In this document: one piece after another, positions 12,979-25,701 of the stretch
Layout: the number at the start of each line of letters is the position of its first letter
Numbering within the stretch: position 1 is the stretch's first letter
Source: Lachnospiraceae bacterium NK4A179
GTDB lineage: Bacteria > Bacillota > Clostridia > Lachnospirales > Lachnospiraceae
NCBI GenBank assembly: GCA_000421045.1
Contig: ATWC01000003.1
Coordinates: 1-64,000, forward strand
DNA: 64,000 nt
Direction of reading: 5' to 3'
The notes under the pieces: model-generated
Told to the model about the DNA's origin: nothing
What the model saw: only the letters and a program-made list of their open reading frames with translations
Database searches by the model: none
Position numbers and translations under genes: made by a program

Positions 12979-14832
12979 TTAGGTGTAACTGATAAAGGCC
13001 TCAGCGCTGAAATCAGCCCCTGCTTTTCCGAAGCTTTTTATACATGATCCGGGCTTTTTCCCGATCTTATCTTTATGAGCTTCCATGAAGCTTTCTATAT
13101 CTTCCGAACCGGCAAATCTGTGATATACATACAATGCCCTGTCTTTATATTTTCTGATGACAAGCTGGCCGCCATGCGGATCGTTATATGATCCCGGTTC
13201 CGATATGTTTACGATCGTACTTCCGTTTTTGATGATATCAGCCGCTTCTTTATAAAACGCTATGCTCTCATCAATTATCTTCCACTGTGCATCCGTCAGA
13301 TCATTGATATCTCCCGAAAGACCCATACGTCCTAAGAATGCCGCGCATAAGGAATAATATAATCTGTCATCACTGTCAGTTGCTCTGAACACGGCCCATA
13401 TCTGATTCTGTGAAGGCTTTACCAGATAATGCAGATTGGCTGCGATTATCGGAAGTGCGGGTATCTCATGTGCATCCGAGAAGCTTGCCATGCTTGATAA
13501 TTCCATCATCGAAGGCTCAAGCCTGTGGCCGCCGCTAGAACAGTTTTCTATGACCAGTTCAGGTATCTCTTTAACCATCTGTCTGAAGAAATCCTGAGTC
13601 TTTAATACTTTCTGCCTCAGGTTCTCTCCCATGCCGTCAGGCCCGTCACAGCCTGTACCAATGGTATCGTTGTAATCGACCTTTATATATCCGAAACCGT
13701 TTTCCTTTAGCGCATCTATAACATATTTTTTCAGAAATGCCTGCACGTTTTCTTTTTCAAGATCAAGAAATCTGCGGCCGCCAACGGTTAAGGGCACTCC
13801 ATCCTTTTTTATGAGCATCTCTTCATCGTTATAGACTCTGCTCTTCATCCCTGCTGTTTCAAATTCATACCATATTCCCGGTATCATGCCTTTTGAACGT
13901 ATGTAGTCAGTTACGGGCTTTAAACCATTCGGGAAACGTTCCTTATTCACATCCCAGTTGCCGCTGTATTCCCACCAGAAAGCGCCTTTATCCAGATACC
14001 ATCCGGAATCCATCACCAGATACTGTATACCGTGCCCTTCAAGCTTGTCGGCGATCTTTATCATATTTTCTTCCGAAGGATCTCCCCATGTGGCGCAATA
14101 TTCATTGAAGGTGATCCCCATCTGATCATCAACGGGACTCACGGCAGGATGCTGCGATCTTACAAGCTTGTCACACACTTCTTCAAGCGACGAGCCTTCG
14201 GCCACCACTGCTTTTGGTGCATATACAGTCTCGCCGGGGCTTACAGTTTTAGTAAAATGACCAAAATCCCTGTCTGCTATGCCGCCTGCAAGCGTCACTT
14301 TTTCATCATTCCTTATGATCACTTCGATCTGCCAGGATGCGGGAGAGTACAGCTGCACAGCCGTAAATTTTCCCGTGCGACTGTCTTCGATCGCCGCAAA
14401 AGGAAAATATCTCCGCACGGGCATGCTTCCAGTGTTTCCGTATTTTTCTATTCTGTATGCCAGATGACTCCAGGAGTATTCCAGATTCAGATCACTTAAG
14501 CGATCTGTTTTGTGACGGCCTTCCGCCGACCAGAATGATGTGAAGCGGTGAAGTGTGTCTCCTTCTATGTCTTCGATCACAAAAGAATCAAGCATCTCAA
14601 GAGTGCATGGCTTAGTACCTTTGTTTTCAACAACAGTCTGCACATGCACCGCACCTGTCTCTTCGTCAGTTTTCTTTATAACAGAAAGCACCAGACCGTT
14701 ATCAGATCTTTGAACATCCTCATCATCTGCTTTAAAACCAGTCATCGTGCGGCTGTTGATCATTGAGAGTCCGCAAGAATAAAAACCCTCGTATTCGTCA
14801 CCGGTTACCTTAAGCTGAGAACTTATCTTCAT
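12979..14832 (-). CDS. Alpha-galactosidase-like glycoside hydrolase (GH36)
   Basis: 617 residues, no signal peptide. An N-terminal beta-sandwich is followed by a TIM barrel starting near YCATWGDPSEENM. YIKVDYNDTIGTG carries the expected nucleophile Asp. ENCSSGGHRLEPSMM and FSDAHEIPALP form the region of the second carboxylate in GH36; the usual family sequence around the acid/base is SD(N/D), so the SDAHE form marks a divergent branch. Alpha-galactoside specificity is the most likely but not certain. It has a GGAGG site and starts 23 bases after the histidine kinase stop, so it may belong to the regulator-transporter operon. Confidence 0.85.
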   Translation of the reverse strand: MKISSQLKVTGDEYEGFYSCGLSMINSRTMTGFKADDEDVQRSDNGLVLSVIKKTDEETGAVHVQTVVENKGTKPCTLEMLDSFVIEDIEGDTLHRFTSFWSAEGRHKTDRLSDLNLEYSWSHLAYRIEKYGNTGSMPVRRYFPFAAIEDSRTGKFTAVQLYSPASWQIEVIIRNDEKVTLAGGIADRDFGHFTKTVSPGETVYAPKAVVAEGSSLEEVCDKLVRSQHPAVSPVDDQMGITFNEYCATWGDPSEENMIKIADKLEGHGIQYLVMDSGWYLDKGAFWWEYSGNWDVNKERFPNGLKPVTDYIRSKGMIPGIWYEFETAGMKSRVYNDEEMLIKKDGVPLTVGGRRFLDLEKENVQAFLKKYVIDALKENGFGYIKVDYNDTIGTGCDGPDGMGENLRQKVLKTQDFFRQMVKEIPELVIENCSSGGHRLEPSMMELSSMASFSDAHEIPALPIIAANLHYLVKPSQNQIWAVFRATDSDDRLYYSLCAAFLGRMGLSGDINDLTDAQWKIIDESIAFYKEAADIIKNGSTIVNISEPGSYNDPHGGQLVIRKYKDRALYVYHRFAGSEDIESFMEAHKDKIGKKPGSCIKSFGKAGADFSAEAFISYT

Positions 14833-14855
14833 TTGTAAAACCTCCGGGATAGTAT

Positions 14856-15746
14856 TTAAAATCTGATCGAAATGCTAAACATCCCGTTATTATGATCAGC
14901 TGAAATCTTTCCGCCCATTTTTTCCGTAAGAGCTTTTGCGATCGAAAGGCCTATGCCTGTTGAATTCTTTCCTGTGTTTACAGTATAGAAGCGGTCAAAA
15001 AGTTTTTTTACATTAAGCTCATTCAATTCTTTAGCGTTGTTACTGAAACGAATCTCGCCGTCATCCGTAAGCTCTATCTTCAGTTTATCTGCAGTATACT
15101 TAAGAGCATTACTCATAAGATTGGAAAGAATCCTGTCGACTGCGGCAGGATTCAGTTTCCTCACTATTTCATTTTCGGTTATATATACTTCAGGCGTGAT
15201 ACCCTTTTCAGTAAGGGCGCCGTAATAATCCATCAGACAGTCTTCCACCATCTGATTGAGCCTCACATCTGACAGTTCAAGCGGTTTTCCTATATCATCC
15301 CTGAAAGTAAGCGAATACTCAAACAGTTCATCCGTAAGATCCTTCATATAATGCGCACGGTCATCGATTATCTTAAGATAACCGGTGACCTCTTCCGACA
15401 TTTCCTTACAGTTTTTTCCTTTTATCATATCCAGATAGCCGATGATGGCTGTAAGCGGAGTTCGCAGATCATGTGAGATATTTATTATCGTGCGTTTCAG
15501 TTCCGCATCACCCTGCACATTCAGCTCATACTTGGCATGCATCTTTTCCTGAGTGCGGTTTAGCTCGGATACCAGTTTTCTTATCTCACCATCTCTGGAT
15601 GAGGTTCCGATCTTTGTTCCGGAATTCATCTCTTCCCGCGATGAAAACTTCATCCGTATCTCACGAATGGATTTTCTCATCACCATAACTTTTATAAAAA
15701 GAATGATCGAAATGATAATGCTGATACCAAGCACTGCTGTTTCCAT
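14856..15746 (-). CDS. Sensor histidine kinase
   Basis: 296 residues. A single hydrophobic segment at the very N-terminus (about 4-23) and no extracytoplasmic sensor domain suggest intramembrane sensing or dependence on the neighbouring ABC transporter. The H-box ISHDLRTPLTAIIGYLDMIK (His92), the N-box LSNLMSNALKY and the G-box GIGLSIAKALTEKMGG are complete. It is the fifth gene of the set regulator-ATPase-permease-permease-kinase, an arrangement known from lantibiotic/bacitracin-response loci. The cognate regulator is the gene at 18415-19080. Confidence 0.92.
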   Translation of the reverse strand: METAVLGISIIISIILFIKVMVMRKSIREIRMKFSSREEMNSGTKIGTSSRDGEIRKLVSELNRTQEKMHAKYELNVQGDAELKRTIINISHDLRTPLTAIIGYLDMIKGKNCKEMSEEVTGYLKIIDDRAHYMKDLTDELFEYSLTFRDDIGKPLELSDVRLNQMVEDCLMDYYGALTEKGITPEVYITENEIVRKLNPAAVDRILSNLMSNALKYTADKLKIELTDDGEIRFSNNAKELNELNVKKLFDRFYTVNTGKNSTGIGLSIAKALTEKMGGKISADHNNGMFSISIRF

Positions 15747-15770
15747 AACCGCCTCTTCTTTTGAATATTT

Positions 15771-16520
15771 TTACTGGATCTCTTTTTTGTTTAATATACT
15801 GATGCCAAGATATGTGAATACCGCAATCTTTAAAAGTGAGAGTACAATGCTTCCGATAAACGGAAGATGAATTGCATCTTCTCCTGCTCCAAGGTAGATT
15901 GAAGAAAACCACTGTCCCACAGCTGTCAGGTTATATACTATTTTTGCCACAAATTCCAACGGTGTTTCATAAAACACCATGCAGCATAAATAATTTGCTA
16001 AAAGCATAAAATTAAATGTCAGATAAAGAATACCTACGCCCGCAAACGAAGATATATACTTTTTTGAAACACACATTCCTATAAAAGTGAGCAGTGCAAT
16101 GATGCCGGCTACATAAAAGAATGTACGGAAAGCATATCCGATAAAAGCAGCATCTATATTTGCACCTGCCGCATCACCTGCAATGATCCATACAACTATC
16201 ATCACTGCTTCTGCGATCAGCTGTGTGATAAGGTGTGAAAAGTATATCTCTGCTCTGCTGTGACCGGCAGCTATCTTATTTTTAATCACACCGTCAGAAT
16301 ATTCAACACATATAAAGGCTCCGCTGAAGATGCAGAAAAAAGCGATTATCGCAGCACTGAGTATCTGCATCATATTGTTTGCGGCTGCTACCGAAAGTAT
16401 GCCCGCAAAATGCCCGGTCTTTACTGCTATGAATGTGATCACAGCTGCAAGGATAAGTCCGATAATATAAAATATATTTGAAAATAATCTTTTAAGATTA
16501 ATTTTAACCAGATTTTTCAT
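15771..16520 (-). CDS. ABC-2 type permease (LanE/LanG-like), second
   Basis: 249 residues with about six hydrophobic segments and the motif SDGVIKNKIAAGHSRAEIY, typical of lantibiotic-immunity/bacitracin-type permeases. It pairs with the permease at 16536-17309, from which it is separated by 15 bases. GGGAG lies 9 bases before its start. With the ATPase it should form a heteromeric exporter or flippase that removes a membrane-active compound. Confidence 0.85.
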   Translation of the reverse strand: MKNLVKINLKRLFSNIFYIIGLILAAVITFIAVKTGHFAGILSVAAANNMMQILSAAIIAFFCIFSGAFICVEYSDGVIKNKIAAGHSRAEIYFSHLITQLIAEAVMIVVWIIAGDAAGANIDAAFIGYAFRTFFYVAGIIALLTFIGMCVSKKYISSFAGVGILYLTFNFMLLANYLCCMVFYETPLEFVAKIVYNLTAVGQWFSSIYLGAGEDAIHLPFIGSIVLSLLKIAVFTYLGISILNKKEIQ

Positions 16521-16535
16521 TTTTGTATTCTCCCA

Positions 16536-17309
16536 TTATGAAAGTTCTCTTCTGTTAAAAACGATCAGTCCGACTGCCAAAGATATCACAGTCAGCACGG
16601 CTATACCTGTCGCATAGCTCATTCCGTCCCATCTGGGTGTTCCCTGCAGATACATGAAGGGAACAAATCTGTCGATCACTGTATATGCTTTTATCTTAAT
16701 ATCCGAAAGATTGGACACACCGTCAGGAGGATACAGATAATTTAAGATCACCGTTGATGTAACTTTGAATGCCAGTGCCGTGATCGCAGGAATTATGTAT
16801 GCAGCTTTTGTACCTCCGAATATAAATACCAGTGCCGTAAAGAATACAGCCAGCGCACATCCAGAATAGATATATACTGAAATATTTACCAGGAAGATCT
16901 CAAGCGGCATGCTAAACCCACCGGGAAGGATGAGTGAGATGATGATAAGCACCAATGCATCAAGAAGCTGCACGGCTGCAGAAACTATCGCAGAAAAAAT
17001 GCATGCTGAAAGGAATATGGAACTCCTTTTGTTTCCTACCGCCAGACGGTTTTTGATGGTTCCGTCTGTAAAGTCGCCTGCTGTGAATATGGCCGCAAAT
17101 CCCGCCGTAAACACTGATACTACTTCGGCAAAGCTTCCTATGTTTGTATCTACCGTTATATCGTTTATATCCACATCCATCGCACGATATACAAGAAAGA
17201 AAACTACTGCATAAAATATTGCATATGACACCGTGAGAGCAATGATCGCGATCCAGACTCTTTTTGATGCGCAGAATCTTTTGATGTCACCTTCAAGCAT
17301 TTTCGGCAT
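16536..17309 (-). CDS. ABC-2 type permease (LanE/LanG-like), first
   Basis: 257 residues from ATG 17309, supported by GGAGGTG 8 bases upstream; an in-frame start at 17357 lies deep within the ATPase gene and lacks support. It has about six transmembrane segments and the paralogous motif TDGTIKNRLAVGNKRSSIF, matching the second permease. It overlaps the ATPase 3' end by 17 bases, which implies translational coupling. Confidence 0.85.
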   Translation of the reverse strand: MPKMLEGDIKRFCASKRVWIAIIALTVSYAIFYAVVFFLVYRAMDVDINDITVDTNIGSFAEVVSVFTAGFAAIFTAGDFTDGTIKNRLAVGNKRSSIFLSACIFSAIVSAAVQLLDALVLIIISLILPGGFSMPLEIFLVNISVYIYSGCALAVFFTALVFIFGGTKAAYIIPAITALAFKVTSTVILNYLYPPDGVSNLSDIKIKAYTVIDRFVPFMYLQGTPRWDGMSYATGIAVLTVISLAVGLIVFNRRELS

Positions 17310-18219
17310 TGTTCTCACCTCCAAGAAGTGAAAGATAGAAAGATTCGAGACTTTCATCTTTTTCTTCTGCCTTGATCAGTTCACATCCGGCATTTGCAAG
17401 CGTAATAGCAAGCTTGCTTATGGTCACATCGCTGAATACATCTGCCGTGCTGTCGTCTATCATCTTGTATTCGATATGCTGCTCATCCATGGTGCGTGCA
17501 AAGATCTCGCTGTCAGAGATCTTTATCCTTATGCACTTTGAACACTCTTTTTCGAGTTCTTCAGCGCTCATCTCGCGTACAATGCAGCCGTTATCTATGA
17601 ATCCGTAATGAGTAGCTATTCTGGAAAGCTCATCAAGTATATGGCTTGAGATAAGTATCGTTATTCCTTTTTCATGATTAAGCTTAAGTATCAGCTCTCT
17701 TATCTCGATTATTCCTTCAGGATCAAGACCGTTAACCGGTTCGTCAAGAATGATGAAATCAGGGTTTCCGCAAAGAGCAATGGCGATCGCAAGGCGCTGG
17801 CGCATACCAAGTGAAAAATGTCCGGCATGCTTCTTTCCGGTATCGCTTAAACCTACCAGTTCAAGCAGCTCATCTATACCTTCATAATCAGGAAGACCGA
17901 GATTGAGGTACTGCATCTTAAGATTATCAACTGCTGTCATATTTTTATAGATAGCAGGATTTTCGATGATAGCACCGATGCGCTCTCTTGCAGTGCTGAG
18001 CTCTTTTGTGTTCTGGCTGTTTACACCGAGAAGGTCAAAAGATCCTGATGTAGGTTTCTGAAGACCGCAGATCAATCTGATGAGAGTTGTCTTTCCGGCT
18101 CCGTTCCTGCCTACAAACCCGTATATCGATCCCTTGGGGATATTCATATTGAGATTTTTAAGAACCTGAACCCGACGGTAGTTTTTGCAAAGATTGTCAG
18201 TTTTAAGTACGTATTCCAT
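17293..18219 (-). CDS. ABC transporter ATPase (LanF/BcrA-like)
   Basis: 308 residues from ATG 18219 (AAGGAG 8 bases upstream). Walker A is GRNGAGKTT (37-45), the signature FSLGMRQRLA and Walker B FIILDEPVNGLDP. In the place of the usual Q-loop glutamine the sequence reads GAIIENPAIY, with Glu86. An E-loop in place of the Q-loop is the documented mark of lantibiotic self-protection ATPases, which supports a peptide-antibiotic immunity function. About 90 extra C-terminal residues follow the nucleotide-binding domain. It has a leader of about 125 bases with hairpins and an RR-type promoter at 18352-18406. Confidence 0.93.
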   Translation of the reverse strand: MEYVLKTDNLCKNYRRVQVLKNLNMNIPKGSIYGFVGRNGAGKTTLIRLICGLQKPTSGSFDLLGVNSQNTKELSTARERIGAIIENPAIYKNMTAVDNLKMQYLNLGLPDYEGIDELLELVGLSDTGKKHAGHFSLGMRQRLAIAIALCGNPDFIILDEPVNGLDPEGIIEIRELILKLNHEKGITILISSHILDELSRIATHYGFIDNGCIVREMSAEELEKECSKCIRIKISDSEIFARTMDEQHIEYKMIDDSTADVFSDVTISKLAITLANAGCELIKAEEKDESLESFYLSLLGGENNAENA

Positions 18220-18245
18220 GTTTCGTTCTCCTTTTGTTTTATAGT

Positions 18246-18333
18246 AAACGACAAAACTCTTTTCGTTTTGTCGTTTGCTGCGCCGGATTTTGGCCGCTAA
18301 AAGCGGCATATTTCCTTTTAAAATCCGTGCGCT
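18246..18333. repeat. Hairpin-rich leader of the ABC operon
   Basis: Two structures in the untranslated leader. The first is a perfect 12-bp inverted repeat (AAACGACAAAAC, 18246-18257, with 18265-18276). The second is a nested repeat whose outer arms GGATTTT/AAAATCC (with flanking GCGC pairing) enclose an inner hairpin GCCGCT-AAA-AGCGGC near 18293-18307. Regulation of the operon by leader structure or mRNA stability is possible. Confidence 0.6.
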
Positions 18334-18351
18334 TTATATATCACAAACCGG

Positions 18352-18406
18352 ATTATGAACCATGGACGTCAAGAAACCGGCCAAAAAATAGTCAAAAAAT
18401 CGTCAA
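18352..18406 (-). promoter_or_regulatory. Response-regulator operator and promoter of the ABC operon
   Basis: On the minus strand: TTGAC-N6-TTGAC-N6-TTGGC-N7-TTGAC-N10-CATAAT. The four repeats start 11, 11 and 12 bases apart, one helical turn each. The same spacing, including the distance to the -10-like hexamer, is found before the esterase gene at 19152-19206. OmpR-family regulators bind such same-face direct repeats. It begins 9 bases after the response-regulator stop codon. The -10-like hexamer is 21 bases from the third repeat, so without an activator the promoter should be weak. Confidence 0.75.
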
Positions 18407-18414
18407 GATTGATC

Positions 18415-19080
18415 TTACAGGTGAAATTTGAATCCGACGCCATAAACAGCTTCAATATAATCCTTGCCGTTCACAGTCTGCATTTTCTTTCTGATATTGC
18501 TGATATGTTGTTTTAAAGACCTCTCCGTACAGTCCGGCGTTTCATCGGCAATACGATCAAGAATGGTATTACGTCCAAGCGGTCTGCCGCAGTTGAGCAT
18601 AAGAAGATGAAGAATTGCTGTTTCCGTTCTGGTAAGTGATATCTCAGATCCTTCAACTGTAACACACAGCAGATCCTTATCCAGGCTAACCTCCCCCTGT
18701 GTCAGGATATTCCCTGTATCTACAGCTACTGCCGCACTCTTTCTTAACTGTACGGCAATCCTTGCCTTTAACTCACTCACTTCAAACGGTTTGGTAATAT
18801 AATCCGCAGCACCGTTCATAAGCAGATTTACCTTATCCTCGGTGCCGGTTTTTGCACTCATTATTATGACAGGAAGATCCTTTATCTTCTCAAGGACCTC
18901 TTCACCGGTCATACCGGGCAGCATCAGGTCAAGAAGCACCAGATCTGGTCGCTTTTTTTCCACTGCAAGCACCGCTTCCGTTCCCGAAAAGGCTCTGGTC
19001 ACTTCGTATTCATCCTTCAGCGCCTCTTCAACCATATCTCCTATATACATGTCATCATCAACGATAAGAATATTTTTCAT
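18415..19080 (-). CDS. OmpR-family response regulator
   Basis: 221 residues from ATG 19080 (GGGGGAG about 9 bases upstream). The receiver domain has the acidic pocket VDDD, the phosphorylation Asp51 in LLDLMLPGM, and conserved Ser-Ala and Lys positions (IIMSAK, ITKPFEV). The C-terminal winged helix ends in ISNIRKKMQTVNGKDYIEAVYGVGFKF, a typical recognition-helix region. It is transcribed ahead of the ABC operon and divergently from the esterase gene. Matching repeat arrays flank it on both sides, so it is the obvious candidate to bind both. Confidence 0.95.
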   Translation of the reverse strand: MKNILIVDDDMYIGDMVEEALKDEYEVTRAFSGTEAVLAVEKKRPDLVLLDLMLPGMTGEEVLEKIKDLPVIIMSAKTGTEDKVNLLMNGAADYITKPFEVSELKARIAVQLRKSAAVAVDTGNILTQGEVSLDKDLLCVTVEGSEISLTRTETAILHLLMLNCGRPLGRNTILDRIADETPDCTERSLKQHISNIRKKMQTVNGKDYIEAVYGVGFKFHL

Positions 19081-19151
19081 AATAGAGCTCCCCCTTTTTT
19101 GCAATATCGATTTTAGCAGATTTAAGCCCAACTTGCAGTTCATTTAAAAAC

Positions 19152-19206
19152 TTGACCATATCTTGACCATCATTTGACCGCTTTCTTGACTGCATTATGT
19201 TTATAT
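19152..19206 (+). promoter_or_regulatory. Response-regulator operator and promoter of the esterase gene
   Basis: On the plus strand: TTGAC-N6-TTGAC-N6-TTGAC-N7-TTGAC-N10-TTATAT, the same geometry as the ABC-operon array at 18352-18406. An inverted half site (TGGTCAA, 19212-19218) follows the -10 region. As it lies in the divergent gap, it could also affect the response-regulator promoter. Confidence 0.75.
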
Positions 19207-19249
19207 ATCACTGGTCAAAACAAAAATAAATACACAGGAGATCCTCATA

Positions 19250-20569
19250 ATGAAGAACAATTCAACAAAGAAACATGTAAGAACAGGAACAATACTCATA
19301 GCAATATCATTATCACTTGTTCTGATAAATGCTCTGGTCTACGCGGTGATCATATATGCGCCGGAGATACGATCCAAAAAGAATATAGACGGTCTTGAAG
19401 CAAAGGCAGTTCCCGTTAATGATATTTACATCCCCGATGATGCGGTTGTTATAGGACTGGGAGAAGCAACTCACGGCAATGTTGAATTCCAGGAACTGAA
19501 GCTGCAGGTACTGCAGGAAACCGTTGAACGTTACGATGTGGGATCCATCTCAATGGAACTTGATTTTGGAACAGGTATAGCGATCAACCGTTATGTGCAC
19601 GGCGGATCAGGCGATCCCGCACTTCTTGCAGAGTCCACAGGTTATCCCATCTACGATACAAAGCAGATCGCTGATCTGATCCGGTGGATACATGACTATA
19701 ATCTTACATCAGAAGATAAAGTTTCTTTTTACGGCTTTGATATGCAGGCGCCCATGTATGACCTGCCCTACATCGAGGAGTTTTGCAATAGATATGCGAT
19801 CCTTTCCGCTGAAGAAGTGACTGCAATGTATTACGGACTTAACTGGGAAAGCCACAGCGTCAATAAAGAATCAGAGAAAGCTTCTTATGATGTTATACGA
19901 AGAGTGGAAGCAGAATTAGTCGATAATGCAGATAAATATTCAGATGACCCTGATTACCGTATCATACTTCAGGCGTGCAGAAGTGCTCTGTACTGCAGTA
20001 AATTCGACAATATAGATTCGGATTCAGAAGATGAAGAGAAATCGGGAATGGAAATACGTGACCTTTCAATGGCTGAAAATATCAGATGGATACAGGAGTA
20101 TGAAGCTGATCTCGGACACAGCCGTATCCTTATTTCTGCACATAACGGCCATGTAGCCGCTTCCGGACAGGAATTCAAAGCAATGGGTAATAATCTGAGA
20201 GACTTCTACGGAAGCGGATATTTCGTTATCGGAACGGATTTTTATTACACATCAGATAATATGAACATGTTCGGTGCATCGACCGAAAGAAGCGATGAAC
20301 ATTTCTGCTCAGCTGACCCTCTTGCAGAAAAGGCAAAAGACTATCCCAACGGGGAATTCTATATTAACTTCAGAGACCTGAAGGAATCTGACGGTGAGAT
20401 CTATACTGTTGCACATTCACCGATGATGATGGGTTCGATCGGTGAAGGCTACCAGCCTATGTGGCACCTGATGCCCTCATACATCCGTGGAAAAGAGGTT
20501 CCCTCCAAAATCTTTGATGCGATGATAATGGTATATGATGCCACTCCTATAAGAGTAGTGCATCAATAA
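19250..20569 (+). CDS. Erythromycin esterase-family protein, membrane-anchored
   Basis: 439 residues; AGGAG lies upstream. A Lys-rich N-terminus and one transmembrane segment (about 13-37) predict an extracytoplasmic enzyme domain. The family motif GLGEATHGNVEFQELK (Glu72, His75) and SAHNGHVAASG match PF05139, which includes EreA/EreB macrolide lactone esterases but also many members of unknown substrate. Macrolide hydrolysis is therefore only a possibility. Its promoter carries the same array as the ABC operon, linking it to the resistance-type island. Its stop overlaps the convergent hypD stop by 7 bases. Confidence 0.85.
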   Translation: MKNNSTKKHVRTGTILIAISLSLVLINALVYAVIIYAPEIRSKKNIDGLEAKAVPVNDIYIPDDAVVIGLGEATHGNVEFQELKLQVLQETVERYDVGSISMELDFGTGIAINRYVHGGSGDPALLAESTGYPIYDTKQIADLIRWIHDYNLTSEDKVSFYGFDMQAPMYDLPYIEEFCNRYAILSAEEVTAMYYGLNWESHSVNKESEKASYDVIRRVEAELVDNADKYSDDPDYRIILQACRSALYCSKFDNIDSDSEDEEKSGMEIRDLSMAENIRWIQEYEADLGHSRILISAHNGHVAASGQEFKAMGNNLRDFYGSGYFVIGTDFYYTSDNMNMFGASTERSDEHFCSADPLAEKAKDYPNGEFYINFRDLKESDGEIYTVAHSPMMMGSIGEGYQPMWHLMPSYIRGKEVPSKIFDAMIMVYDATPIRVVHQ

Positions 20570-21606
20570 CTGTATGCTGTGTTGCAGCTTCCTTCCGGTG
20601 ATACCATGCAGGCACCCTGCGGATTCTCGGGTGTGCAGATCTTTCCAAAGAGCGGACATTTTTCCGGCGGCATGAGCCCCATGATAACCTTATCGCAGCT
20701 GCAGGCCTTGTTTCTCTTTTCATCTTCCGAAAGGCCTGCACTGCCTGCATCGAAGGCAGCATAACTTTCGCGGATAAGATACCCTGAACCCGGCACGTTT
20801 CCTATACCGCGCCACACAGCATCCGACTTGCAGAAATATTTATCTATCAGTTCCTGCGCTTTTACATTTCCGTCATGATCAACAACAGACTGATAATTAT
20901 TTATTACCACTCCCTCTCCCCTGTGCTTTACAAGCATTGCAATGGATGCGAGAAGACCCGGGCCGTCAAAGCCTGAGACAACAAATGGAAGAGAATATTT
21001 CTCTGCTGCTTTTTCAAATACCCTGCTGCCCGTGACCACGCATACATGTCCAGGTGCGAGAAATGCATCTATCTGCGCACCTGAAGAACAGAGCGTATCC
21101 ACTATCTCCGGCATGGTCTTTAAGGCTGTGAGAAGCTTTACATTTTTAATATTCTCTTTGATAAGAGTATCCAACAAAAGTGCATATACGGGAGTTGTGG
21201 TTTCAAAGCCGATCGCTGCGAAAACATATTTCTTATCCGGTGCTTCTTTTGCTATGGCTACCGTATCCATCGGAGAATAGACCATCTTTACCGATGCTCC
21301 GCGACCCTCTGCTTCGCGCAGTGATTCACGGCTTCCGGGAACTCTCAACAGGTCACCGAAAGTAAGTACCGTTGTGTCAGGCTTTAACGAAAGCTCTATA
21401 AGCCTGTCAACATATGAACTGGGCGTAACACAGACAGGGCATCCCGGGCCCGATATCAGATGGATCTTCTCTGACAACATGCCGGGTATGCCATTCTTTG
21501 CTATAGCGCCCGTATGACTTCCGCATATTTCCATTATACGTATATCCGGGCCGCTGTATTCATGCAGATATTTTTTTATCGCTACAAGTTCGGTATTGTT
21601 ACTCAT
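20563..21606 (-). CDS. hypD: Hydrogenase maturation protein HypD
   Basis: 347 residues. HypD is the 4Fe-4S scaffold protein that with HypC assembles the Fe(CN)2CO unit of NiFe hydrogenases. MEICGSHTGAIAKNGI contains the conserved Cys, SGPGCPVCVTP the CPVC motif, and the C-terminal Cys-rich segment includes NKACSCDKVIMGLMPPEKCP. The only in-frame start is ATG 21606; its nearest GGAGG is 15 bases away, and the start overlaps the preceding small gene by 8 bases, so translation is probably coupled to that gene. Confidence 0.95.
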   Translation of the reverse strand: MSNNTELVAIKKYLHEYSGPDIRIMEICGSHTGAIAKNGIPGMLSEKIHLISGPGCPVCVTPSSYVDRLIELSLKPDTTVLTFGDLLRVPGSRESLREAEGRGASVKMVYSPMDTVAIAKEAPDKKYVFAAIGFETTTPVYALLLDTLIKENIKNVKLLTALKTMPEIVDTLCSSGAQIDAFLAPGHVCVVTGSRVFEKAAEKYSLPFVVSGFDGPGLLASIAMLVKHRGEGVVINNYQSVVDHDGNVKAQELIDKYFCKSDAVWRGIGNVPGSGYLIRESYAAFDAGSAGLSEDEKRNKACSCDKVIMGLMPPEKCPLFGKICTPENPQGACMVSPEGSCNTAYSY

Positions 21607-21997
21607 ATCTGTTGCTCACAACCTCCAGTTGCATATAACCTTCAGGTATTTTGTATCCCTTCTTGTTCTGCAGTTCAAGAGTATCTTTCTTTATGATATT
21701 TCCGGACTCATCCTTCACTTCGCCCATCATTACTTCGAAAGTAACTCTCCCGTCATGAGTGATATCTGTAATCTTTAAATCAACACTCCCTATGCCGATA
21801 TAGTCTCCTTTGAGACACTCCTGCTGGGAATAAAATGCATCCGATATATCAGATTTATTATATGCTCCATCCACAGCGATAGTTGCCCATGAATGTGTAT
21901 CTATATATTTTTTTATACCACCTATCATAATGATCGCGAACAGGCCTGTAATAACAGACAGGACAATTAAAACTATTATTAATCTTTTCTTTTTCAT
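21599..21997 (-). CDS. Small single-span membrane protein of unknown function
   Basis: 132 residues with a hydrophobic N-terminus (about 5-28) followed by an extracytoplasmic domain of beta-strand character (GDYIGIGSVDLKITDITHDG, RVTFEVMMGEVKDESG). Not recognised. It lies between the terminator after hypC and hypD and overlaps hypD by 8 bases, so it leads a two-gene unit with hypD. AAAGGA is placed 10 bases upstream. Conservation beside hypD in other genomes would be needed to argue for a hydrogenase role. Confidence 0.7.
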   Translation of the reverse strand: MKKKRLIIVLIVLSVITGLFAIIMIGGIKKYIDTHSWATIAVDGAYNKSDISDAFYSQQECLKGDYIGIGSVDLKITDITHDGRVTFEVMMGEVKDESGNIIKKDTLELQNKKGYKIPEGYMQLEVVSNRYE

Positions 21998-22027
21998 CAG
22001 CAGTTTTCCTTTGGATAGATACAGAAA

Positions 22028-22058
22028 AGAGCCCGGAAATCCTTATCTTCCGGGCTCT
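22028..22058 (-). terminator. Terminator of the ech-hypC operon
   Basis: Eleven-base arms AGAGCCCGGAA and complement (22028-22038, 22048-22058) with a 9-base loop. On the minus strand the stem is followed by TTTTCTG. It lies 29 bases after the hypC stop. Confidence 0.75.
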
Positions 22059-22087
22059 CAGATACATCTTTCAAATGATAATAAGCT

Positions 22088-22303
22088 TTAACCATCCAGT
22101 TCTTCGGCAAGCTTTACCCATTCATCATACTGCTCATCCGATACTTTCTGGAGGATGCAGCCGGCATGAACGAGGACCCGTTCTCCGGGTGCCACATCCA
22201 TAAGGCCCGTACGTGCTTCAATACGACTTCCGTGAAAATCCACCAAAGCTATATTTTTTTCATTATCAATTGAGATCACCTTACCGGTATTAGCAACACA
22301 CAT
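22088..22303 (-). CDS. hypC: Hydrogenase maturation chaperone HypC
   Basis: 71 residues. The N-terminal MCVA provides Cys2, the residue with which HypC-family proteins bind HypD and the Fe unit and then the large subunit. VDFHGSRIEARTGLMDVAPGERVLVHAGCILQ is reduced here to its parts: the central GERVLVHAGC is the OB-fold signature. It follows echF with a TAATG junction (1-base overlap) and is the last gene before the terminator. It should be the dedicated chaperone of EchE. Confidence 0.95.
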   Translation of the reverse strand: MCVANTGKVISIDNEKNIALVDFHGSRIEARTGLMDVAPGERVLVHAGCILQKVSDEQYDEWVKLAEELDG

Positions 22304-22821
22304 TATGCTTTATCCTTTGAATCATCTGCAGCTTTCTCTTCAGGCTTTGCAGCTTCAGGCTTAGCTCCGCCTTCTGCGGCAGCCTTTGCTTCTGCAGCCT
22401 TCTTGGCTTCCATTGCAGCCTTGGCTTCAGCCGCTTTTTTAGCCATCTCTTCACGCTTCCTTGCTTCCTCGGCAAGCACTTCAGGTGACTTTGTAAATGT
22501 AACATCACCCTTTTCACTGCCGGGTTCCTGATAGCCTGCAACCATTGTCAGGCAATGCTTCGGGCACTTCTCAACGCAGAAACCGCAGGCTATGCAGTCA
22601 AAGCGATTGATAGTCCATGTGCCTTTTATCTTATCGACTGAAAGCGTTCCGCAAGGACATGATCTTACACACATGCCGCAGCTGATGCAGTCGTCGATGC
22701 TTATCTCTATATGGCCTCTCGTGCGCTCTTTGTACTCGGCGGGCTCCGCAGGATACGAAGTTGTGACCGGCTTTGAAAACATATTCTTAAGCGCCGTTTT
22801 GGCAAATGTCATTACTGCCAT
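22303..22821 (-). CDS. echF: Ech hydrogenase subunit F, 2x[4Fe-4S] ferredoxin-like
   Basis: 172 residues from ATG 22821 (AAGGAG site; a longer in-frame ORF to 22863 lacks support and overlaps echE). Two cluster motifs, Cys45-48-51-55 (CISCGMCVRSCP) and Cys76-79-82-86 (CIACGFCVEKCP), match the NuoI-like subunit that passes electrons from ferredoxin to EchC. The last about 57 residues are an unusual low-complexity tail of Ala, Lys and Glu (KKAAEAKAAMEAKKAAEAKA), likely helical and highly charged, absent from typical EchF proteins known to me. Confidence 0.92.
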   Translation of the reverse strand: MAVMTFAKTALKNMFSKPVTTSYPAEPAEYKERTRGHIEISIDDCISCGMCVRSCPCGTLSVDKIKGTWTINRFDCIACGFCVEKCPKHCLTMVAGYQEPGSEKGDVTFTKSPEVLAEEARKREEMAKKAAEAKAAMEAKKAAEAKAAAEGGAKPEAAKPEEKAADDSKDKA

Positions 22822-22831
22822 TTTTCTCTCC

Positions 22832-23911
22832 TTATCTCTCTGTACAGCTGATGCAGGGGTCAATAGTTACAACAAGTATTCCCACATCCGCATAATCAGC
22901 GCCCTTAAGTGTCTCACAAAGACCTGCAAGGTTTGCAAACGTCGGTGTGCGGACTCTCATTCTGTCGAGATTGGGAGTTCCATTACCACGGATGTAATAA
23001 TCTGCCTCACCGCGAGGCTGTTCTATACGCATGAAATACTCGCCATCGGGATTGCCCTTAACAGCCGCAGCAATCTCTCCTTCAGGTATCTTTGATATTG
23101 CCTGACGTATGATATCGATCGACTGGAATATCTCACGTATACGCACATCACATCTTGCATAGCAATCGCAGTCATCAGATGTGATCGGCTCCATATCGAT
23201 CTCGCCGTATGCGGCATATCCGCGCATACGCATATCTGTTGCTATTCCGCTGGCTCTTGCAAAGGGACCTGCACATCCGAATGCATGTGCCTGCTCTTTT
23301 GTAAGGATACCTACGCCTTTCATACGTGACTGAACTGAATAGTCATTCATGAAAGTCTTCTGAAGGCTCTTTGTCTCCTTCTCAACAAAATCAACGGTCT
23401 CGAGTATCATCTTCTGCATCTCGGGAGTGATATCCTTAAGCACACCGCCCACCTTGTTAACCGAAAAGATTACACGTCCGCCGGTTGTAAGTTCGATCGC
23501 ATCAAGAACCTTCTCACGTACTCTCCAGCACTGATAGAAAAGGTTTTCAAATCCGAAGGCATCAGCCATAAGACCTGCCCAGAGCAGGTGGCTGTGAAGC
23601 CTTGAAAGCTCAAACCAGATAGTTCTTAAGAACTTTGCCCTGTCGGGAACTTCAACATTCATCACATGTTCAACTGCTTCGCAGTAGCCATAGCCGTGAC
23701 CGAAGCTGCAGATACCGCAGATACGTTCTGCAACATAAGCCATCTGGTTGAAGTCTCTTTTTTCTGTAAGTTTTTCAAGACCTCTGTGAATAAAACCGAT
23801 GGAAGGAATAGCTTCAACTATCTTCTCATCTTCGATCACAAGGTCAAGGTGTATCGGCTCCGGAAGCACAGGGTGCTGGGGACCGTAAGGTATTACGCTT
23901 CTCTTGCCCAT
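22832..23911 (-). CDS. echE: Ech NiFe-hydrogenase large subunit
   Basis: 359 residues. Nickel-iron ligands come from the N-terminal RICGICSFGHGYGY and the C-terminal DPCISCTER motifs, both CxxC. The protein ends just after the second motif, so it needs no or little C-terminal processing, as usual for Ech. It is homologous to NuoD. Catalytic subunit of the membrane-bound group 4 hydrogenase that reduces protons with electrons from ferredoxin. Confidence 0.96.
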   Translation of the reverse strand: MGKRSVIPYGPQHPVLPEPIHLDLVIEDEKIVEAIPSIGFIHRGLEKLTEKRDFNQMAYVAERICGICSFGHGYGYCEAVEHVMNVEVPDRAKFLRTIWFELSRLHSHLLWAGLMADAFGFENLFYQCWRVREKVLDAIELTTGGRVIFSVNKVGGVLKDITPEMQKMILETVDFVEKETKSLQKTFMNDYSVQSRMKGVGILTKEQAHAFGCAGPFARASGIATDMRMRGYAAYGEIDMEPITSDDCDCYARCDVRIREIFQSIDIIRQAISKIPEGEIAAAVKGNPDGEYFMRIEQPRGEADYYIRGNGTPNLDRMRVRTPTFANLAGLCETLKGADYADVGILVVTIDPCISCTER

Positions 23912-23913
23912 TT

Positions 23914-24303
23914 TTATGCCTCCTCCTTTTTCTTCGGAACAAAAGGTGTCTCCTCTTTGATCCGGTATAATTTGTTGTGGAAATCAGGATCTATCACTTT
24001 GATATTAGCTCCGAAAAGCTCGCGCATCTCATTCTCATAGAATGCAGCATACGGGAATATACCGCTTATGCTGGCAACCTCTGAATCCCTCTCGGCTTCC
24101 TCAAGTGAAACCCTGTATGTGAAAGCATCATAGGTCGTATCATCAACAAAGGAATAAAGCAGTTCAAGCTTGCTCTCCTTCTTTACCCATGCGGCACATG
24201 CCTGTGAAAGACGCAGGCCTTTCTCTTTCATCTCCATTGCTCTGATGGGGAGCTCCGCAGCTGTGATGGTTATTATCTCATTCTTTCCTTCTGTTGCATT
24301 CAT
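23914..24303 (-). CDS. echD: Ech hydrogenase subunit D (NuoC-like)
   Basis: 129 residues, homologous to the 30-kDa NuoC subunit. Visible family positions are LLYSFVDDTTYDAFTYRV and the terminal FYENEMRELFGANIKV, in which the E-x-x-x-x-E-LFG core docks to the large subunit. Two bases separate it from echE. Confidence 0.9.
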   Translation of the reverse strand: MNATEGKNEIITITAAELPIRAMEMKEKGLRLSQACAAWVKKESKLELLYSFVDDTTYDAFTYRVSLEEAERDSEVASISGIFPYAAFYENEMRELFGANIKVIDPDFHNKLYRIKEETPFVPKKKEEA

Positions 24304-24306
24304 GCG

Positions 24307-24807
24307 TTACTCCTCCTTTCCTGCTTCTTCTTTTTCTTCGGAAGAATCTTTTTCTTCCTGTGAGGATTTTTCATCCTCGCCGCTTTCCATCTTATTAAGT
24401 CTTTCCTGGAAAATACCGATGCCCTTTACGATACCGTCAATGATAGCCTGGGGTCTTGCTGCACATCCCGGAACATACACATCAACCGGGATCACCTGAT
24501 CGGCACCGCCAAGGATGTTGTAACATTCCTTGAAAACACCGCCTGTGCAGGCACATACGCCTACGGCAACCACTACCTTCGGATCTGACATCTGCTCATA
24601 TAACTGCTTTACAACAGGTGCGTTCTGAGTATTTATACCGCCGGTGATGAGAAGTATATCTGCCTGCATGGGATCGCCGGTATTTACGATTCCGAATCGC
24701 TCGGCATCATAGACCGGTGTGAGGCAGGCAAGCACTTCGATATCGCAGCCGTTACAGCTCGATCCGTCATAATGCATCACCCACGGAGATCTTGTGATTT
24801 TATACAT
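24307..24807 (-). CDS. echC: Ech hydrogenase small subunit (NuoB-like)
   Basis: 166 residues. The proximal [4Fe-4S] ligands are visible as GSSCNGCDIEV (Cys18, Cys21), VGVCACTGG and VPGCAARPQ. It transfers electrons between EchF and the EchE active site. The last about 32 residues form an acidic low-complexity tail rich in Glu, Lys and Ser (SSQEEKDSSEEKEEAGKEE), unusual for NuoB-type proteins. Confidence 0.95.
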   Translation of the reverse strand: MYKITRSPWVMHYDGSSCNGCDIEVLACLTPVYDAERFGIVNTGDPMQADILLITGGINTQNAPVVKQLYEQMSDPKVVVAVGVCACTGGVFKECYNILGGADQVIPVDVYVPGCAARPQAIIDGIVKGIGIFQERLNKMESGEDEKSSQEEKDSSEEKEEAGKEE

Positions 24808-24822
24808 ATCTTCGTCCCTTTC

Positions 24823-25701
24823 TTAATTGAACATATAAATTAAAACTAAGAAATTTGTTCCTGCAAGTGCCAGAGTCACACCCCATGAAAGCTTGATCAT
24901 AAGATCCGACTTCATACGCGCTGAACTGTTGTCTATAAGTATCTCGAGGAAATATACAAGGAACACAACGATCACTGCCGCAAGTATGCTCCAGAGATTC
25001 TTGTTTAAGATGAACAGCGCTACCATACCCATGAGGAATACTGTCTCGTACCACTCTGCAAGTGTATATACCGCAAGATTCTTGGCACCGAGCTCAGAAG
25101 TGATACCCTTTACTATCTCCTGGTTGGGATGATGTGATGTGCTTATATCAAAAGGTGACTTTCTCATCTTGATCGTAAGTATGAATACGAATGCGATGAA
25201 CACACCGGGCATATAAGCTATGGGACTGATATCCTTGCTAATGATATCGGCTGTGTTGAAGCTGCTGCTTACAACATAGAATGCAACGCAGGTGAGCAGT
25301 ACGCAGGGCTCGTATGCAACCATCTGAAGAAGCTCACGTGTTGCACCGATATTTGTGTAATGAGATCCGGTCACAACAGCTGTGAAATAAAGGAACATTA
25401 CTGCTGTTGAAAGGATGAACATGCACATAAGCAGGTCCATTCCAAGGAACATCATTCCGCCTGTAAGTATTATAAAGAACAGATATGAAAGCATCATGAA
25501 ATCCTGTGAAGGAGCCACATGGATGGGATCCTTGTGGAGAAGCTTTCCAAAATCATAGAACGGCTGAAGAATGGGAGGTCCCACACGTCTCTGCATACGA
25601 GCCGAGATCTTTCTTCCGATTCCGTCAAGCAGACCGCCGATCAGCGGAGCTAAAAGTACATAGCAGACAGCTATTATTATCTTAATCGTCATATCACTCA
25701 T
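24823..25701 (-). CDS. echB: Ech hydrogenase membrane subunit B (NuoH-like)
   Basis: 292 residues with about eight hydrophobic segments. RRVGPPILQPFYDFGKLLHK is the NuoH-type loop facing the peripheral arm, and KMRKSPFDISTSHHPNQEI contains the conserved acidic/loop region. It anchors the hydrogenase module to the membrane and helps couple redox to ion movement. Its start overlaps the echA stop by 4 bases. Confidence 0.95.
   Translation of the reverse strand: MSDMTIKIIIAVCYVLLAPLIGGLLDGIGRKISARMQRRVGPPILQPFYDFGKLLHKDPIHVAPSQDFMMLSYLFFIILTGGMMFLGMDLLMCMFILSTAVMFLYFTAVVTGSHYTNIGATRELLQMVAYEPCVLLTCVAFYVVSSSFNTADIISKDISPIAYMPGVFIAFVFILTIKMRKSPFDISTSHHPNQEIVKGITSELGAKNLAVYTLAEWYETVFLMGMVALFILNKNLWSILAAVIVVFLVYFLEILIDNSSARMKSDLMIKLSWGVTLALAGTNFLVLIYMFN

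Follow-up and report, generated by a model that had tools for sequence, protein, structure and literature searches.

We analyzed a window of 64,000 nucleotides from the gut/rumen-type Lachnospiraceae bacterium NK4A179 (contig ATWC01000003.1, positions 1 to 64,000), in which genes for a response regulator (R), an ABC transporter (F, E and G), a histidine kinase (K) and an Erythromycin-esterase-family protein (ere) lie side by side (Table 1). As the R, F, E, G and K genes are all encoded on the minus strand, they read in the order R-array-F-E-G-K, while a second array and ere are divergent from R. The identities of R, the transporter and ere, proposed by an earlier sequence-only reading, are borne out by the domain content of R and ere and by the likeness of F to the lantibiotic-protection ABC family TIGR03740, against which F scores 237 bits (curated cut-off, 310). 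Both E and G contain several hydrophobic segments, consistent with about six helices each; their ABC2_membrane matches are weak. By hydropathy, K has one N-terminal membrane helix only, in relatives as in the window. The window's genome contains no LanC-like domain or protein, and because of this we regard the module as one of resistance rather than lanthipeptide self-immunity. Directly downstream of ere, and convergent with it, the translations show a HypD-like gene and apparent [NiFe] hydrogenase genes (20563-25701, minus strand).

Table 1. Genes and regulatory features of the R-F-E-G-K and ere locus (window coordinates).
Feature	Position	Strand	Evidence and remarks
-10-like hexamer TTATAT, ere	19201..19206	+	TATATA if read one base on; 10 (or 11) bases beyond array
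ere: Erythromycin-esterase-family protein, N-terminal membrane anchor	19250..20569	+	PF05139, 1.1e-41
Four-repeat array before ere	19152..19190	+	TTGAC x4; spacing 11/11/12; sequence TTGACCATATCTTGACCATCATTTGACCGCTTTCTTGAC
R: OmpR/PhoB-type response regulator	18415..19080	-	Response_reg + Trans_reg_C; recognition helix CTERSLKQHISNIRKK
Four-repeat array before F-E-G-K	18368..18406	-	TTGAC x3, repeat 3 = TTGGC; spacing 11/11/12; sequence TTGACGATTTTTTGACTATTTTTTGGCCGGTTTCTTGAC
-10-like hexamer CATAAT, F operon	18352..18357	-	10 nt beyond 4th repeat
F-operon leader	18229..18345	-	two strong hairpins, z -6.5
F: ABC ATPase, LanF/CprA-like	17293..18228	-	best NCBIfam match TIGR03740, 1.5e-70
E: ABC permease, 273 aa, ~6 membrane segments	16536..17357	-	PF12679 weak; hydropathy; E position in relatives
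G: ABC permease, 249 aa	15771..16520	-	hydropathy; homologous to relatives' G
K: histidine kinase	14856..15746	-	single N-terminal membrane helix, no extracytoplasmic domain

The two arrays are exact matches (0 mismatches) to the pattern TTGAC-N6-TTGAC-N6-TTGRC-N7-TTGAC. They lie where the sequence-only reading had placed them, at 18406-18368 (-) and 19152-19190 (+), flanking the regulator gene and facing the transporter operon and ere, and the -10-like hexamers that it reported after ten further nucleotides are found as CATAAT and TTATAT. Its description of the spacers as identical applies to their lengths (6/6/7 in both arrays) and fails for their letters; since the letters differ, we dropped the idea that the arrays arose by recent duplication. 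In 100 dinucleotide shuffles of the window, matches at ≤3 mismatches averaged 0.02, and no shuffle gave two. Between the F promoter and F, the second leader hairpin has a sequence that was found in no retrieved relative, and an Rfam search of window positions 14000-22000, leader hairpins included, returned no match.

To place these arrays in the whole genome (3.2 Mb, 73 contigs), we scanned it with the pattern, allowing up to 3 mismatches, and with a 58-column profile of 21 F-operon promoters from other genomes, the window being excluded. The pattern scan found three sites: the two window arrays and a third, weaker array with 3 mismatches on a different contig (C20:45393-45431, equal to L017:9394-9432). 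The profile ranked the same three sites at the top (ere array, E = 4.4e-11; F array, 7.7e-11; C20 site, 1.7e-6), with the next match at 0.14. The search proposed by the sequence-only reading, for random occurrence of the motif throughout the genome, yielded three sites only and left that reading unrefuted. The third site, which it had missed, stands upstream of a second Ere-family gene, likewise missed, at C20:45663-46880 (L017:9637-10893). Some 210 nt of leader precede this gene, and close to its start an A-tract shows an apparent one-base shift, possibly an error of the draft sequence. Because the genome-wide list consists of these three promoters, the predicted regulon is F-E-G-K, ere and the second Ere gene (ere-2).

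In genomes of the same genus, R-array-F-E-G-ere-K forms one gene run with the array inside the R-F gap, and a search with the Ere alignment extended this order to other Lachnospiraceae, among them Butyrivibrio sp. XPD2002 and VCD2006. Judged by this gene order, the pairing of ere with the pump operon is real: in relatives, ere sits inside that operon behind the same array. The 35 genus genomes contain 13 pattern sites, compared with 0 for a reversed-pattern control, and ere is present in 8/10 operon-bearing genomes vs 1/25 others (p = 1.6e-5, a value that is partly by construction, ere often being in the operon). The gene is nevertheless an optional part of the operon, and three loci (L131, L133 and L136) have R-array-FEG-K without it. 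An ere outside the operon slot with an array of its own occurs in the window and at L088, where the order is R-array-F-E-G-K-array-ere (profile E = 3e-5); the L088 record is labelled Bacteroidales and may be misbinned. In 1.3 Mb of sequence from 73 sources whose Ere genes are not in the operon slot, arrays were found only at the window, L088 and the C20 locus. In the R tree, the window and L088 regulators occupy separate positions, both among regulators from operons that mostly include ere. Sites at L138, L144 and L145, with no R-F pair alongside, look like chance matches and were set aside. An extra array (L132:6717-6755, G029:C82; profile E = 5e-9) is followed by a 45-aa hydrophobic peptide from 6909, in a genome whose operon is without ere.

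The operator has a constant architecture. In 21 aligned operons the array lies between R and F, beside the regulator gene, with direct repeats at 11/11/12, one helical turn apart; the sequence-only reading had described just such repeats next to an OmpR-type gene. Conservation across these 21 sites is strong for all four repeats, least so for repeat 3, and for the TTTC that precedes the last one; the repeats had been selected for, whereas columns 50-55 had not. Those columns, 10 nt on, read TATNNT (T 20/21, A 20/21, T 17/21, last T 21/21). Because the fourth repeat lies close to the -35 position, in a promoter without a good -35 of its own, R probably takes the place of the -35. In one sub-clade (L020, L021, L086, L089, L098 and L131; approximately array positions 22-55), the fourth repeat is part of a stem-loop followed by a U-run (z -3.4 to -5.0), and one stem pair varies between A-T, C-G and T-A. 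This is probably the terminator of R, overlapping the F promoter; no terminator hairpin over the fourth repeat is present in the window.

A second tier of profile matches (E from 3e-4 to 0.03) reveals a paralogous family, R'-array'-F'-E'-K' (L182-L190), whose arrays are built of four TTAAC repeats, with TATCCT or TATTCT as the hexamer. Spacing is 11/11/12 in 5/9 of them, with one spacer a base or so shorter elsewhere. The R' regulators form one clade (support 100/99) and carry the recognition helix CTEDSLKIHIHNLRRK, compared with CTERSLKQHISNIRKK in R. The joint change of repeat base and recognition helix, in few events, offers the strongest indication at hand that the array would be the regulator's own site. 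Read at this level, the TTAAC and TTGAC operons represent a natural operator-specificity switch.

The window Ere protein was modeled with AlphaFold2 at a pLDDT of 94.9, and the model matches BcR135 of B. cereus (TM 0.71, E = 7e-24) and EreC (TM 0.60, E = 2e-15). The catalytic residues of EreC are E47, H50, E78, R261 and H289 (PMC7979712). The first three align with E72, H75 and E103 of the window protein, and R261 and H289 correspond to R270 and H298 by conserved motif rather than by printed alignment; all five window residues are invariant in 48/48 proteins. The fold and the catalytic E, H, E, R, H are thus shared with EreA, EreB, EreC, BcR135 and BcR136 (PMC7979712). In contrast to these proteins, the window protein is membrane-anchored and falls far below the EreB/EreD family cut-offs (37.8 vs 800 bits). 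Because its N-terminus is one membrane helix, the enzyme is predicted to lie outside the cytoplasm. BcR135, the nearest structure, has no established natural substrate.

In the Ere tree the operon eres form a single clade, and the window ere groups with proteins of Peptostreptococcus, Streptococcus, Peptoniphilus and Catonella (97/97). Several of these nearest relatives (in Peptoniphilus, Streptococcus and Peptostreptococcus) adjoin FtsX-type BceAB modules with a two-component system. A single clade of window and C20 Ere is rejected (AU p = 8e-54), indicating that Ere genes of no fewer than two lineages have been placed under this operator; a clade of window and operon ere, which bears on the idea that the window gene is a relocated operon ere, is neither found nor rejected (p = 0.36). 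More broadly, Ere genes beside BceAB-type or other two-component modules were noted at L029, L032, L037, L039 and L060-L062 (Peptoniphilus, Streptococcus, Peptostreptococcus and Blautia).

It is instructive to compare the locus with known systems. Like CprABC-CprK-CprR of Clostridioides difficile and other CprABC/LanFEG-type operons, it combines an ATPase, two ~250-aa permeases and an adjacent two-component system, and like CprABC/LanFEG-type operons it is free-standing, without peptide biosynthesis genes, and locally regulated. It differs from Cpr operons in its Ere-family companion, its four-repeat operator and the position of R, which comes first and is separated from F by the array. CprK has two membrane helices and an external loop (PMC8003753), whereas window K has one helix and no external loop; because this kinase feature is absent, the module is not a strict Cpr member. 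The spa-box consists of pentanucleotide direct repeats with 6-nt spacers. In subtilin producers, the LanR-type SpaRK regulator acts on several promoters, including that of the SpaIFEG immunity operon (PMC8991943). The window resembles this system in repeat length, 6-nt spacers and a LanR-type regulator predicted to act on several promoters including that of FEG, but its repeat sequence is different, its repeats number four instead of two, and no lanthipeptide cluster is present. The NsrFP-NSR-NsrRK operon of Streptococcus agalactiae unites a peptide-antibiotic transporter, a two-component system and an extracytoplasmic hydrolase (PMC5786555); there, however, the hydrolase NSR belongs to the serine proteases and the pump to the BceAB type, in place of an Ere-family protein and a LanFEG-like transporter. 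BceAB-BceRS modules, which the nearest Ere relatives adjoin, differ in having an FtsX-type permease of ~650 aa where the window has two short ABC-2 permeases. Operons of the Cpr type and companions such as LanI or NSR have been described before (PMC5786555, PMC8003753), and operators made of direct repeats, as in the spa-box, are known too. In the literature searched, mostly papers available without subscription, we found no Ere-family companion in Cpr/LanFEG or Bce operons and no Lachnospiraceae Ere operons.

Taken together, these observations are best explained by a Cpr/LanFEG-like peptide-antibiotic resistance module joined by an Ere-family extracytoplasmic hydrolase, all probably activated by R; we give this reading a probability of about 0.7. 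The sequence itself establishes the arrays, with their number, position and conservation, as well as the linkage and the catalytic residues, whereas binding, activation and inducer are inferred. K would sense envelope attack, probably jointly with the transporter because it has no external domain, and would then phosphorylate R. Two head-to-tail dimers of phosphorylated R would occupy the four TTGAC direct repeats, which recur once per turn of the helix, and would recruit RNA polymerase, the last repeat lying near the -35 region and a short way upstream of the -10. Pump and kinase (F-E-G-K) would be switched on in this way, as would ere, from the divergent array, and the second Ere gene, behind the C20 site. 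The Ere protein would act as a membrane-anchored extracytoplasmic hydrolase alongside the pump, in a role like that of LanI lipoproteins or the NSR protease. We infer that it may protect against the same compound as the pump, a substrate class taken from the transporter only. Counted against this explanation were the missing CprK-type external loop, the score of F under the lantibiotic cut-off, the optional nature of ere and, at the C20 site, the 3 mismatches, the long leader and the apparent one-base shift.

The alternatives concern both the arrays and the enzyme. TTGAC is a common promoter word, and the arrays might be no more than a chance or low-complexity likeness of two AT-rich promoters; the shuffles, the reversed-pattern control and the restriction of genomic matches to three sites in the profile search refute this idea and leave it practically no probability. 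By itself TTGAC also resembles a -35 hexamer, and the binder is read from sequence alone, so that some other OmpR-type regulator might bind the arrays, or R might repress instead of activating. We consider this improbable: the array is nearly always beside R, each R paralogue goes with its own repeat base, and four repeats upstream of a -10 without a proper -35 fit activation.

For the enzyme, the sequence-only reading had proposed a combined peptide and macrolide-type response, in which one regulator turns on both export and an extracytoplasmic esterase. Its regulatory half is supported by comparative genomics, through the ere genes found in the operon behind the same array and the list of three sites; its macrolide half is not. 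Membership in PF05139 and conservation of the Ere catalytic residues (those of EreC, PMC7979712) would suit an enzyme that opens macrolactone rings while the pump exports peptides. Such a role is unlikely, given the missed EreB/EreD cut-offs, a best structural match to BcR135 rather than EreC, nearest relatives next to BceAB-type modules, and a protein predicted outside the cell when macrolides act intracellularly. A less distant prospect, which we hold possible yet doubtful, is that Ere modifies the envelope, cleaving an ester of some polymer of the cell wall or of polysaccharide as a damage response rather than destroying an antibiotic. The most similar structures belong to B. cereus proteins whose names refer to polysaccharide biosynthesis, and members of the family are widely distributed outside resistance modules, also in records labelled Bacteroidales and Actinomycetota; against this, Ere is tied to pump operons in this clade, and no envelope biosynthesis genes were seen beside it.

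What, then, might Ere-family proteins do in these bacteria? To our knowledge, gut and rumen bacteria commonly carry homologues of erythromycin esterases, which annotation generally labels macrolide-resistance-like and for which no substrate is known. The module of pump, regulator and Ere-family hydrolase suggests a broader view, which we put forward tentatively as somewhat short of an even chance: Ere-family proteins may be a recurrent, independently recruited enzymatic arm of Bacillota peptide-antibiotic resistance modules, extracytoplasmic hydrolases that act on a damaged target in the envelope or on an antibiotic containing an ester (a cyclic depsipeptide, for instance) and share their regulator with LanFEG- or BceAB-type pumps, with a LanFEG-type kinase that has no external sensor reading the transporter. 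A group of Ere homologues would thus be tied to peptide-antibiotic resistance modules, and their inducers thereby predicted. The system also provides a clean regulon whose operator code (TTGAC vs TTAAC) can be read, and the two named Butyrivibrio isolates would allow it to be tested.
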